A stretch of 41,910 nucleotides of DNA from Deltaproteobacteria bacterium (GTDB lineage: Bacteria > Desulfobacterota > Desulfobacteria > Desulfobacterales > C00003060): positions 1 to 41,910 of the forward strand of contig JAFGFW010000158.1 in assembly GCA_016930875.1 (NCBI GenBank). The letters are read 5' to 3'. Under the pieces are notes generated by a model. It searched no databases. It worked only from the letters and a program-made list of their open reading frames with translations, and had not been told where the DNA came from. Made by a program: the position numbers and the translations under genes. Below are positions 2,670-17,274 of this stretch, in pieces (positions within the stretch are counted from its first letter, which is position 1; every line of letters starts with the position of its first letter).

Positions 2670-2972
2670 CTACCTCATAGAAATTCTCCCCTCTTCATCA
2701 ATGACAAGGTATCTATCCACTGTGATTGTCTTTTGCTTTTCCGTCTCTTCAACAGTACCTGTCACCAGTACTCTTGCCCCAATGAGCTCAGCCACGGCTT
2801 TGCCCAGGTCAGTCCGGGCCAAGTCATACGCTTCCCCATCATCCGTCACGATTTGAGCCCTTTCATTGACCATCCCCTCAATCGTGACAGGGTCTGTCTG
2901 GGCAATCGTTCCTGAAACCAACAACCCAGCAAGCAACATAAAAGTAGCAAACCACGCTTTTTGTCTCTTCAT
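2670..2972 (-). CDS. Secreted small OB-like protein (paralogue D)
   Basis: A 100-residue protein with a signal peptide (MKRQKAWFATFMLLAGLLVSGTIAQ). The mature part reads DPVTIEGMVNERAQI, then a VLVTGTVEETEKQKTITV segment and a VDRYLVIDEEG end. The beta-rich pattern (TIxGxV at the start, TGTVxE...KTITVxxY at the end) is shared with the proteins at 22553-22849, 28147-28452 and 28495-28815. It likely folds as a small OB-like barrel in the periplasm. Its ATG overlaps the TGA of the restored kinase frame by four bases (ATGA), so the two genes are translationally coupled. The biochemical role is unknown. Confidence 0.75.
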   Translation of the reverse strand: MKRQKAWFATFMLLAGLLVSGTIAQTDPVTIEGMVNERAQIVTDDGEAYDLARTDLGKAVAELIGARVLVTGTVEETEKQKTITVDRYLVIDEEGRISMR

Positions 2973-4244
2973 TGTCCAACCTCCCTGGAAATAGAAATGT
3001 AAAAGGTCGTTCCGTTAGCAGGGTCGGATTCGACCCAGGCCTTTCCACCATGGGCTTCCATGATATCCCGCACAATGGCCAGACCCAAACCAGAACCCTC
3101 TGTTTGCCGTGAAACTGACAGCCTGCGAAACATGTGGTAAACCTGATTACATTCCTCTTCGTTGATGATTCTACCGTTATTGTTTACAGAAAAGATGTGA
3201 AAGTGATCGTCATGGTGGTATCCAATGGCGATCTTGGGCGATCTTGCTGAGGCTGTCACCTCCATGCTTCAAGGCATTGTTAATCAGGTTTCTAAACACC
3301 CTTGTCATGGCCAGTTCGTCGGCCATGACTTCTCGGACGCCTTCAGGTCCTAAAAGACGAATGCTTCGCTTTTCGAGCACTTCTGAGACCTCATCTCGAA
3401 TCTGCTCCACGACCTTATGAATGTCTGTCTTCTCCATGTTCAGGGCGGCTTCAGTGGCACTGATGTATTCGTTAATGGCCATGACCAATCTCAAAACCTG
3501 ATCGGCTGCCTTTTTAATGGCCTTGCAGTACTTTTTCAGCTTGTCATCCAAAGCATCGCCGTATCTTTCAAGGATGGATTCCATCATACCGACAATGCCT
3601 ACGGTCGGGTTTTTGAGATCGTGAGAAATCGTATACGCAAAGAATTCAATCTCGTCTTTTTTCTTTTTGATTTCCTCGGCCTTAATCTTAATGGCTTCAT
3701 GAAGTCTTGCCACATTGACGGCAATTGCAATTTGATTGCCGACTGCCACAAAAAGATCTACATCGGATTGGGTCAAAGACACGGTCCGTTTGGAAGCCAG
3801 GTTCATGACCCCAAGAACCTCTTCGTTGACAATGAGTGGCACACAGATAATCACCTTGAAACCCTGACCTTGAACAAGTTTTGTCCTGGCTGCGTTTTCC
3901 AGGTCTGTGACTTTCTGAGCGATAAAGCTTTTGGTTCTGACCGCTTTCCCGGAAAAACCCTCCCCGATGGCGATTCTGCGGAGGTCCTCTGTCCCCACCT
4001 CACAAAATCCTGCACAGGCCGCCAGTTCCAGTTGGTGGCCAGACTCATCCATCAAATAGATCCTTACAACGTCTACCTTATAGTGCTCTGAAACCTTCCG
4101 AACGGCCCTGTCCAAGATTTCTCGAAGACTAAGAGAGCTGGTCAGATCGCTACCGACGTCATGGAGAATGGCGAGACCCTTGTTTCTCCGTCCCAGCTTA
4201 GCCTTACTGAACTTGACAGTTATGTGTTTTCTGTTTTCCGACAT
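2969..4244 (-). pseudogene. GAF-sensor histidine kinase, frameshifted by a 10-bp duplication
   Basis: The first frame (to 3210) encodes a GAF domain (residues about 30-180), a helix rich in Lys/Glu (184-200), the phosphoacceptor SHDLKNP with His208, and the N-box region NLINNALKHGG. The frame is then lost; the second (2969-3265) continues the ATPase domain with GSGLGLAIVRD and GGKAWVESDPANGTTF. The break coincides with a perfect 10-bp tandem repeat at 3227-3246. Removing one copy joins the frames and gives 421 residues, a normal cytoplasmic kinase. Start chosen at ATG 4244 (GGAAG six bases upstream) rather than the upstream ATG at 4286. The restored frame overlaps the next gene by ATGA, showing the second frame is the ancestral end. 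No cognate regulator gene is adjacent. Confidence 0.85.
3227..3246. repeat. Perfect 10-bp tandem repeat inside the kinase gene
   Basis: GGCGATCTTG occurs at 3227-3236 and 3237-3246 with no spacer. Because 10 is not a multiple of three, it shifts the kinase frame just after the N box. Loss of one copy restores it exactly. Confidence 0.95.
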
Positions 4245-4313: not shown

Positions 4314-4478
4314 TCAATAAGGAATCCGGACCCGCCGTCTTTCAATCTCATCGAGGAAATCCCGGCCGGTGTAAAGAACGACAAATCTTTTCTCAAGTTC
4401 ATCGGTCAGAGCCTCCACCTTGTCTTCCCCAATGCCAGTAGTGCGGACATACACATTGCGTCGCCCTTCCTCTGTCAT
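4314..4478 (-). CDS. Small hypothetical protein, 54 aa
   Basis: A short frame with ATG at 4478 and TGA at 4314-4316. It begins MTEEGRRNVYVRTTGIGE and ends ERRRVRIPY; the middle reads ALTDELEKRFVVLYTGRDF. Its ATG overlaps the stop of the upstream universal stress gene as ATGA, a strong sign of translational coupling. It fills most of the gap between that gene and the kinase gene. Soluble, charged, with an alternating strand/helix pattern. I do not recognise the family and propose no function; the position suggests a role together with the stress protein or the kinase. Confidence 0.65.
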   Translation of the reverse strand: MTEEGRRNVYVRTTGIGEDKVEALTDELEKRFVVLYTGRDFLDEIERRRVRIPY

Positions 4479-5413
4479 TTCCACCGGTGTTTTGAATCAT
4501 CCGGCTTGACCGCCAAAACAGAACATTCAAGGTGATTGAGCACCTTTTCAGCAGTGTTTCCGATTAAAAAACCAGTGATGCCTGTTCTTGCTACAGTTCC
4601 CATGACAACCAGTTCCACCTGCTTCTTTTTTGCCAGATCCACGATCAACTGACTGGGCTTGCCTTCCAATAGATGGACTCTGGAGGATCGGTAATCCAAT
4701 GAAAACCTTTCCAAAAGCTCTTTGACTCGGGTCTCGTGGGCCTTTCGGGTTTCCTTGAGGAGGTCATCCACTACGGCCTGTTTTAGTCGCGAGCGTGCCC
4801 TAAACGTTTTTTCTCGATTCCGGCTCCAGCAATTGACTACGTGAAGGGTACTTCCTTGGGAACGGGCTAATGACGTGGCCAATGCCATGATCTTGATATC
4901 GAGGTCATTCATCTTGTCATCAAAAGGCGCAGGATCTACTGCAGCTAGAATTCGATCGACTTGTCTGCCATGGGTCGGTTTGACCGCCCAGACTGGGCAG
5001 GGACATTTGCGCATAAGGCGCATAGCCGTACTTCCCAGAAGCATTCCTTCCATTCCGTCGTTCGATTCAATTCCGACCATCACCAAGTCGTGGCTTCTTT
5101 TAAGGACTTCCCGGATGATTTCGAGAAATGGGGTACCCCACAGAACTCTCGTGGTCAGTTCGACCCCCTTTGCCTTGGCAGCTGATCTAAACCTCTTCAA
5201 TTGCTCTTCCGTTTCGTCCCTGTCGCTCTTCGGGATTTCTTCAAAACCCTGTGCTTCCACCAACAGCTCTGCGCCAAAGGGATAGTATTTTAGAACCTGG
5301 ATCACTGTCAGCGAAGCACTATTACTTTGCGCCAACCTAACTGCCCGATTGAAGATCTGCTCTCTGCCAGGTTTCCCGTCGTAGGCAAAAAGTATGTTTT
5401 TAAAACGTTTCAT
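4475..5413 (-). CDS. Tandem universal stress protein (UspA family)
   Basis: A 312-residue protein with two UspA domains, about residues 1-146 and 155-308. Each begins with a beta strand (ILFAYDGKPG; RILAAVDPAP) and ends with the nucleotide-binding pattern G-x2-G-x9-G-(S/T): GMLLGSTAMRLM in the first and TGITGFLIGNTAEKVL in the second. Both repeats therefore probably bind ATP. Cytoplasmic. UspA proteins accumulate under starvation and stress and support survival; direct targets are generally unclear. GGGGAG lies upstream of the ATG. It follows the uspA remnant under promoter P1 and is coupled to the 54-residue gene. Confidence 0.92.
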   Translation of the reverse strand: MKRFKNILFAYDGKPGREQIFNRAVRLAQSNSASLTVIQVLKYYPFGAELLVEAQGFEEIPKSDRDETEEQLKRFRSAAKAKGVELTTRVLWGTPFLEIIREVLKRSHDLVMVGIESNDGMEGMLLGSTAMRLMRKCPCPVWAVKPTHGRQVDRILAAVDPAPFDDKMNDLDIKIMALATSLARSQGSTLHVVNCWSRNREKTFRARSRLKQAVVDDLLKETRKAHETRVKELLERFSLDYRSSRVHLLEGKPSQLIVDLAKKKQVELVVMGTVARTGITGFLIGNTAEKVLNHLECSVLAVKPDDSKHRWK

Positions 5414-5523: not shown

Positions 5524-5814
5524 CTATGGAACGATAGGCATTGTCATCCCGGCGGAGGCCTCCAGGACCTTGCCGGCCACACTGCCCATTGAATAGTCTT
5601 TCACTGCCGACTGTCCTTTTCGTCCCAGTAATACGGTCCCATAACTACTCCCTTTGGCCTCTTCTAAGATATCACTCGCCGCACTTCGGCTACCGTCAAC
5701 GAGCTTTGTTGCAATTTGATTCTCACTGGATCCCGCCCTGACAATCATCTCTTGGGCTTTCTTCATGTACGGACCGATCTCTTGCCCCGCTTTTTGCTTC
5801 CAGAGTTCTTCCAG
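5524..5814 (-). pseudogene. Truncated universal stress protein (C-terminal half)
   Basis: An open frame after TAA at 5815-5817 reads LEELWKQKAGQEIGPY, then MKKAQEMIVRAG and on to GTVLLGRKGQSAVKDYSMGS and VAGKVLEAS. This is the second half of a UspA domain, including the GRKG...GSVAGKVLE nucleotide-binding segment. The N-terminal half is missing. The homology starts within a few bases of the predicted start of transcription (about 5819) of promoter P1, as if a deletion joined promoter and mid-gene. Translation could begin at ATG 5766 (53 nt leader) to give 80 residues, but no clear ribosome site is seen. A functional half-domain protein cannot be excluded. Confidence 0.75.
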
Positions 5815-14786: not shown

Positions 14787-17161
14787 TCATGACGAATTAT
14801 CAATCTTTTCGGTCGGACCATTGGCATTCAAGATCTTGAGCTCCAGAGGTCTTGTGGTATCGAGATGGACATCCCTCTGTGGGAAAGCAATGACGATGCC
14901 AGCTTCACGGAAGAGGCCATCAATGCGGAATCGCACATCGCTTTCAATTATGCGACGCTCCATAATTCGAATCACTATAATCCAAAAATATGCATGAAAT
15001 ACGAGAGAGTTATCCCCGAAATCACTGAAAAGCACAAAAGGCTCAGGTACCTTGAGAACACTTCCGTGGCCGAAACGGCTTTAATCATAAGACGTTTCAC
15101 TTCACGTACAGGGGACCCATAGGCTACTCCAACGGTGATGCGGGCCCGGATCATCTTGTCTGAGAGAGTCCAATTTGTTATATTTTTTTCCAAAAAAGTG
15201 CTATTCGGCACCAGGATATGTATATTGCCAGCCGTTCGTATGCGTGTGCACCGTGCGCCAATCTCTTCAACTTTAGCGAAGTTCCCTTCTATTTCGACCA
15301 GGTCGCCTATCTTAATCGGCCGCTCAGCCATGATAATGAATCCGCTGATGAAATTGTTGATGAGGTTCTGGGCGCCAAAACCGACACCAATGGCAATAGC
15401 ACCACCAAGGAAAGTAAAAGCCGTAAGGGGAATGTTAACCATGCGCAAGCCAAAGAGAATGATCAACAGGAAGCCGAGGTAATAGATTATCTTTTCAAGT
15501 GCGGCGGCGGCGCTTGCTTCCAGGTTCATTCGAGGCAGGAGACGGTTCCTCATGACCCGGATGAAGTGCTTAACCATGAAAAGACCCAAGACTAAAATCA
15601 ACAGGGCGATCACGACCTTTCTCACCGTCACAGCCTGGTCATCAATCACCCATAGTTCAAAGTTCCAGACATCTTTTGCCTTGCTTCCCACGGCCAGGAC
15701 CGTCTCCCACAACGCAACATGCTCACGCCTTGAAACAATTTCATCCAAAAGTCTGTGACTTGGCTCTTTAGTGGCCAGCAGCATTGATAGATACTCAAGG
15801 CTTCGTTCAGCCAACTTTTGAAGAGCCTGCCGCTGTTCCTGTAAATGTTGTCTTATCTCCGGATTTACGGCCTCTTCCGAAACTTGTTTTTCTAAAGCTG
15901 CAATCTGAGACTGTAAGTTGGTCCCGTAACTCTGTTGCAGAGACAATACCCCATCAATGCTCTTGATTTGAGTCTCGGCATCTCTCCGCCAGACATCAAT
16001 CTGTTCATGACTTGCCTCATCTTTGACAAGCTCATAACGTCTTTTCCAAACCTGCTCCCTCTGATTTATGAGATGCAACATATGCTCGGTCTGCTCCAAA
16101 ACCCTTTGATAGGTTTCGCGCCATGTCACCCGTGCTTTAAGGAAGGCAGAGGCTATGACAAGCTCGCTTTCATTCCTGGCATCTGATATCTTTTGCTGGG
16201 CCAGGAGCCATGCGGTCTCTATCTGTCTCTGTTCGCGCAGCAATTTTCCCCGGCGTTCTTGTAATTCAGCCCTCTTTTTTTCAAGGCTCTGCAGCTGCTT
16301 TTCCAGATCACTTTGCTCAAAATGGAGGCGGCCGCGCACCCAGCTGACGCTCTGTTGTCCGATATCTGTTTCCAGTTCTGCTAGCCGGAGTCTTGACTGA
16401 AGGTTTTCAAGATTTACTTTTTGAAAATCGAGGATCGCATGAGCCAGTTCCACATCCAATGTCCCTTGTTCAAGATCCCATCTGAATTTACCTGAGTCTT
16501 TCCCAGTTTCTGCGGTTTTTGTTTGTTCCTTGAGGCGGCGCAAGGTCTTTTCCGCCTCTTGAAGCCTCAGCCTGGCATCTTCTACGGCTCTTTCCGCTGA
16601 CCTTTTTCCCAACTCAGCCGCTTCCTTTTCTTGTTTGGAAGCGGTCATTTCATCCAGGAGGTGATCATAAAAACTCAAAGAATACGGTGGCTTTTGGGAA
16701 AGTCCAACCTGTTGCTGCGCTTTTCGCTTCTCCCGTAAGAGATCCTCTTCCTTATACAGAGTTGCCTGCTCCTTTAAGGCAGTGAGAAGGCGTTGATACA
16801 TTATATGAGTCTCTCGCAGTTCAGCAGTACGGGCCTGCAGATCGAAAAGTGACACCCCAAACTGCTGCGCTGTGTTATCATTCTCAGCAGCTTCGGATAC
16901 CTTTATACGCTCTTGAATCTCCTTTATTTTATTCTCTGCCACGGTGGGAGTCATCCCAGAAGACACCTCTTCATTAGTGACTCTCCCGGGCGATTCTTCG
17001 GCTGAATCCGCCAGCGGCATGCCAAGCCACAAGAGCATCAGAATTATAATGAGGGGAACAATCAGGCTGGGATTTCCCAATCGCTCTAGCGCTGGCAGCT
17101 TGTTTTCGCTGTGCCCTCGAAATTTTCGGTTTGTCTGCTTTTCTTTAAATGGGTAATGCAT
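14787..17161 (-). pseudogene. Large MscS-type mechanosensitive channel, one-base frameshift
   Basis: The main frame encodes a signal-anchor, a long periplasmic coiled-coil region rich in Glu/Gln/Arg/Leu, several membrane helices and the MscS pore and beta domain (FLGGAIAIGVGFGAQNLINN, then IMAERPIKIGDLVEIEG). After the AVS at about 15073 the frame runs out to a stop at 14975. The true C-terminal domain continues in another frame (HGSVLKVPEPFVLFSDFGDN and onward to 14787). A single missing base in GGCC at 15068-15071 explains the break; the restored protein would be 791 residues. MscS channels release solutes after osmotic downshock. Start chosen at ATG 17161, six bases after GGAG. Could be a sequencing error. 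Confidence 0.82.
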
Positions 17162-17274
17162 AGTCATCTCCAAAAAAAAGCTTAACAAACTCACTTTGCC
17201 ATGAACTATTCCGCTCCGCGGTCACCACTCACAAGGACGAGAAATCTCTTATTCTTTTCCGCACTATCGCCTCG

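Follow-up and report, generated by a model that had tools for sequence, protein, structure and literature searches.

A perfect 10-bp tandem duplication splits a divergent sensor kinase gene in a deltaproteobacterial genome, probably a recent loss

Introduction

The stretch of 41,910 nucleotides analysed here (hereafter, the window) carries on its minus strand a sensor histidine kinase gene whose coding frame is broken at a perfect tandem duplication of 10 bp. The locus raises the question of whether the kinase has recently been lost, is caught in one position of a reversible switch, continues to work as two pieces, or has been broken by the assembly. The initial annotation of the window had left two of these possibilities, a phase-variable state and a very recent loss, standing side by side.

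Results

Organization of the broken kinase gene

The features of the kinase locus are as follows.

2670–2972, minus strand: small protein of 100 aa, signal-like at its N terminus and without a Pfam match at E <= 0.001; follows the kinase in the presumed operon
2969–2972, minus strand: ATGA overlap between the kinase stop codon and the start of the next gene (sequence)
2969–3265, minus strand: downstream kinase part, in the other frame, 98 aa; rest of HATPase_c with an altered G1 box and the F and G2 boxes (translation, Pfam)
3210–4244, minus strand: upstream kinase part, 344 aa followed by a stop; GAF, HisKA with the SHDLKNP H box, and N box NLINNALKHGG (translation, Pfam)
3227–3246, no strand assigned: perfect 10-bp tandem duplication (GGCGATCTTG twice) with zero flanking microhomology (sequence)
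4475–5413, minus strand: two-domain universal stress protein (Usp), upstream of the kinase (translation, Pfam)

From the ATG at 4244 the kinase frame runs for 344 codons to a stop at 3212–3210. This lies just past the N box, where the frame shift had been placed by the initial annotation, and the rest of HATPase_c lies in another frame. The HisKA profile (PF00512) matches the upstream part with 31.9 bits against a cut-off of 26.9, and the H box and the N box are both present in its translation. The HATPase_c profile (PF02518) matches the 98-aa ORF alone, over profile positions 23–108 of 111 (3e-17), and no complete HATPase_c domain stands in frame with HisKA. The boxes in the downstream part are those that we take to be G1, F and G2. 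The start codon of this ORF (ATG 3265) is situated 53 nt ahead of the upstream stop, and no ribosome-binding site is apparent before it when the sequence is inspected by eye. The 421-residue kinase proposed to result from removal of one copy is right by arithmetic alone (1276 - 10 = 1266 = 422 codons including the stop), and its ATGA overlap with the next ORF is present at 2972–2969.

Neither kinase part contains a further stop in translation, and alignment of each to the homologues described below revealed no additional frame shift or gap; because no other such lesion is seen, the loss would be a recent one. The H, N and G2 boxes are still recognisable. The GC3 of the kinase is 0.51–0.56, versus a mean of 0.56 over 421 ORFs of the same genome; a horizontal origin was considered from composition and set aside, both GC and GC3 being ordinary for the genome. 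With ordinary composition and the boxes kept, decay has not gone far, and a reversible state or an assembly artefact would look no different. Scans for promoters and terminators returned signals no higher than those in shuffled sequence.

The duplication at 3227–3246 was found as the initial annotation had described it, with two copies of GGCGATCTTG head to tail and 100% identical. The 20-mer formed by both copies occurs once in the window's own assembly (212 contigs, 3.68 Mb). Identity at period 10 spans exactly 10 positions, and the duplication is therefore without flanking microhomology. In a 326,176-base sample of the genome, window included, there are 11 exact duplications with a unit of at least 10, against 0, 0, 1, 0 and 1 in five first-order Markov resamplings; the kinase duplication is more than a product of chance. 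A perfect inverted pair of 11 nt (3139–3149 / 3281–3291) flanks the duplication with a spacer of 131 nt. Hairpin-driven duplication by way of this pair was considered and set aside, the spacer being long.

Homologues, the intact paralogue and the phylogenetic position of the window copy

The kinase family was searched for in 40 genomes and additionally across the order (389 genomes; E <= 1e-60), where five candidates were scored in each genome. It was found in 11 genomes, every one belonging to the window's genus (22 genus genomes in the set), with two copies in the window's genome and one in each of ten others. The comparison set accordingly comprises 11 homologues, namely those of the ten other genomes and the own paralogue; L013 and L014, two more remote kinases, are not part of it. 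At the position of the duplication, all 11 homologous stretches are single-copy and, read codon by codon, remain in one frame, and none contains a tandem unit of 8–14 bp. Both window copies of GGCGATCTTG align to the same codons of the homologues, and one codon of the relatives is matched both by residue 334 in the upstream part and by residue 11 in the downstream part. Since the homologues are uniformly single-copy, the lesion is derived in the window copy.

The homologues are 56–60% identical to the upstream part of the window kinase. The intact paralogue lies on contig C135 of the same genome as an open frame of 422 codons, with 57% identity to that part. Eight homologue frames span 421–437 codons (including that of G002, which reaches its contig end), and that of G001 spans 479. 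The G018 homologue, of 426 codons, contains an in-frame TAG at a place other than that of the window's lesion. The G014 homologue is divided between two contig ends, which overlap by 141 identical bases, and its larger piece has 300 codons; an apparent second copy in this genome (a 62% piece) proved to be the front of the same gene at a contig end, 95% identical to the G005 copy.

The domains and their order match those of the window kinase (GAF-HisKA-HATPase_c) in the three homologous loci scanned with Pfam (L003, L010 and L032). The SHDLKNP H box, the G2 box and an Asn at the position of the G1 Asp are common to all 11 and to the window; where the genus kinases differ is in having a single copy of the 10-bp stretch. 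The G1 box is typically DxGxG, and its Asp has a role in adenine binding. In the window the G1 box (about 3170–3184) reads N-N-G-R, without the Asp. The Asn occupies this position in every homologue (L003–L012 and L032), while two outgroup kinases have Asp, and when the own paralogue is aligned to solved kinases the Asn sits on the Asp of D-P-G-I-G and D-N-G-I-G. The replacement is thus clade-wide, in GAF histidine kinases that are otherwise well kept.

A tree of 13 rows was calculated with G014 omitted and L013 and L014 as outgroups. The C135 paralogue groups with the G009 kinase (100/99). The window copy is paired with G001, with support that is not firm (83/63), and has no well-supported partner in this tree; its branch is long (0.66; the median end branch is 0.17), which would fit relaxed constraint or an unsampled origin. 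Given the long branch and the grouping of C135 with G009, the window gene is an extra, divergent copy that was met in none of the other genomes examined. Among the 40 relatives, the 22 genus genomes and the 389 order genomes there is neither a second genome of the species nor a relative of the window copy closer than 60% over the whole part. The one locus returned by a contig search belongs to a Lachnospiraceae MAG and encodes a distant kinase with 31% identity over residues 189–341; the set searched may omit genomes very close to that of the window.

Neighbouring genes

The C135 paralogue is also preceded by a Usp gene, 26% identical to the window Usp. Near the other homologous loci a Usp match occurs only at that of G009 (L005), so that a stress-sensing setting common to the window kinase and its paralogue is only a guess. 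Three further features of the window were noted.

2224–2260: 18-bp unit in perfect tandem (2.1 copies), spanning the start codon of a MarC-family gene
5524–5766, minus strand: Usp fragment whose match is confined to the profile's C-terminal half; the frames upstream look degenerate (Pfam)
14975–17194, minus strand: MscS-type mechanosensitive channel gene, C-terminal part frame-shifted and continuing in the other frame to about 14790 (homologue search)

No tandem duplication was found near the frame shift of the MscS-type gene.

Frame shifts and tandem duplications across the genome

Frame shifts were sought in the window's genome, G001, G005 and G017, each being searched with the ORFs of the remaining three. 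In matched sequence the window's genome has 5 sites in 167 kb, G001 has 2 in 156 kb, and G005 and G017 have 0 in 46 kb and 41 kb, respectively. Two of the own sites lie in the window, in the kinase and in the MscS-type gene (at about 15083), and L051, L138 and L147 have one apiece; the three outside the window are the fairer figure, because the window is in the data by choice. Among the seven sites of the own genome and G001, the kinase site alone has a tandem duplication (unit of at least 6 bp, within 80 bases). The somewhat higher number of sites than in the relatives sampled could also be compatible with assembly error.

Exact tandem duplications were counted for units of 10–120 with two full copies, composite units being left out. 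ORF calls followed a simple longest-ORF rule. The own sample amounts to 900,180 bases (24% of the genome, window and L032 included), from contigs picked by number, with a third batch picked mostly by known size or earlier matches. Counts were 19 in this sample, 6 in 799,001 bases of G001, 34 in 241,348 of G005 and 19 in 185,700 of G017, and short perfect tandem duplications are common in the window's genome. ORFs of at least 100 aa cover 83% of the own sample, yet 16 of its 19 duplications fall outside them (binomial 2.8e-10), and with the window removed 16 of 17 do so. Duplications that touch ORFs number 3/19 in the own genome, 3/6 in G001 (two of them in-frame units), 7/34 in G005 and 8/19 in G017; the small G001 count gives no sign of ORF avoidance, and in G017 the avoidance is less marked. 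Of the 17 duplications within the first 550,611 bases of the own-genome sample, 10 have no flanking microhomology, the kinase duplication among them.

Joins made by an assembler should not avoid genes, so most duplications of the own genome are probably real, and we infer that they have been cleared from genes by selection. The proposal that all exact duplications are assembly joins is disfavoured as a main account by the same 16 of 19. In G005 and G017, two species of the genus, tandem arrays outside ORFs contain recurring units such as CTAAAGTGAA / ACTTTAG and TTCAGTGTTCAGGT; examples from their stretches are listed here.

L110, 2408–2442: array outside ORFs
L116, 1360–1451: array outside ORFs
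L115, 3301–3368: array outside ORFs

Discussion

The broken gene is probably a divergent extra GAF-HisKA-HATPase kinase that was recently lost through a spontaneous 10-bp tandem duplication and is tolerated beside its paralogue. A duplication of this type may have arisen during replication or end repair. The shift of +10 would end translation just past the N box, about 240 bases ahead of the overlapping downstream start, and a truncated product would retain the GAF sensor and the phospho-acceptor His. Such a product would be without the ATP-binding boxes G1, F and G2, and so would be expected not to autophosphorylate. Polarity should also uncouple translation of the downstream gene that overlaps the kinase. 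The loss would be tolerated because the intact paralogue is present. Two observations are counted in favour of loss: the homologue in G018 is broken by a different lesion, its TAG, and the window itself also contains a frame-shifted gene and a Usp remnant. Of the two states offered by the initial annotation, loss is favoured by the single-copy homologues, the shared codons and the lack of any further lesion, whereas phase variation gained no positive evidence. Ordinary recent gene loss, rather than an on/off switch, is most likely.

An error of assembly or consensus, or a minority-strain allele, would have the population single-copy, a short overlap having been doubled at a join or a rare variant taken as the consensus. 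The assembly is a draft of 212 contigs, 97.42% complete and 3.11% contaminated, and an overlap of 10 bp left unmerged would produce just such a site with zero microhomology. The other four own frame-shift sites (the window MscS-type gene, L051, L138 and L147) have no tandem unit of at least 6 bp within 80 bases, which may point to unrelated frame errors in the assembly. Join errors, however, would be expected to hit coding DNA as often as its 83% share predicts, which is the reverse of the distribution observed. An array of 20 bp is moreover normally shorter than an assembler's k-mer, and the lesion is not a homopolymer error. We regard this explanation as unlikely. Phase variation, in which slipped-strand mispairing would lose or gain one 10-bp copy and toggle the kinase and, by polarity, the next gene, is less probable again. 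Perfect direct repeats can contract, and both sides of the duplication are free of further stops. Titles of published work provide precedent for phase variation by duplication and for a frameshift switch in a two-component gene. The array nevertheless consists of two copies only and is missing at the same place in all 11 homologues, with no longer array or conserved repeat at the site; the gene copy was seen, among the genomes examined, in one that also has an intact paralogue, and similar duplications form a generic intergenic background there. In the excerpt of PMC6786866, moreover, no genetic reversion was found in the eight isolates tested from a study of Xenorhabdus lrp mutants. A switch is not supported, as what speaks for it is limited to the reversibility expected of any perfect direct repeat.

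The two remaining explanations are both very improbable. The split form might itself work, with the 344-aa fragment serving as phospho-acceptor or competitor under GAF control, either alone or together with a 98-aa ATPase fragment translated from ATG 3265. Both frames are open, the second ORF has its ATG ahead of the upstream stop, and the clade's Asn at the G1 Asp suggests that catalysis may be unusual in any case. The cut, however, parts the N box from G1, F and G2, the ATG is not preceded by an apparent ribosome-binding site, and the duplication is shared by none of the homologues. Alternatively, the kinase family of the genus might be a 10-bp slippage switch, with the window copy in the OFF state. 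At the H box (TISHDL), 4 of the 11 homologues (G002, G014, G017 and G019; L006, L010, L011 and L012) contain a 10-bp tandem repeat, ACACGATCTC, that is exact and in frame, and its contraction would shift the frame there. This repeat is probably a coincidence arising from the codons of the conserved TISHDL.

If the locus represents plain loss, its significance is minor: short perfect tandem duplications would be a standing class of mutation in this genome that survives mostly between genes and occasionally disrupts a redundant regulator. Were reads to show a mixture, the locus would represent a sensor kinase that is switched by a repeat of two copies, a kind overlooked by scans for long arrays.

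No direct parallel was found in the literature searched on short or reversible tandem duplications. In a preprint (PMC11661271), a 208.6-kb duplication activates a two-component system in Burkholderia thailandensis, which differs from the kinase duplication in scale and mechanism. Among the titles cited in PMC11868660 is one on a switch by frameshift in a Bordetella pertussis two-component gene. Closer in kind are the pneumococcal capsule genes, for which PMC4022640 cites Waite 2001 and 2003, titled on phase variation by sequence duplication; as in the window kinase, a tandem duplication inactivates the gene. Those titles claim phase variation, whereas for the window kinase, known from one assembly, no reversion, population mixture or recurrence was seen. 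In the excerpt of PMC6786866, eight Xenorhabdus isolates were tested and showed no genetic reversion, and it is not stated there if any of the eight carried a duplication. The lrp mutants were followed in isolates and judged to be plain mutants rather than phase variants, while the window kinase comes from a single assembly. Three of the 25 lrp mutations in that excerpt are tandem duplications of 26–116 bp, and there, as proposed for the window kinase, spontaneous tandem duplications inactivate a regulator.
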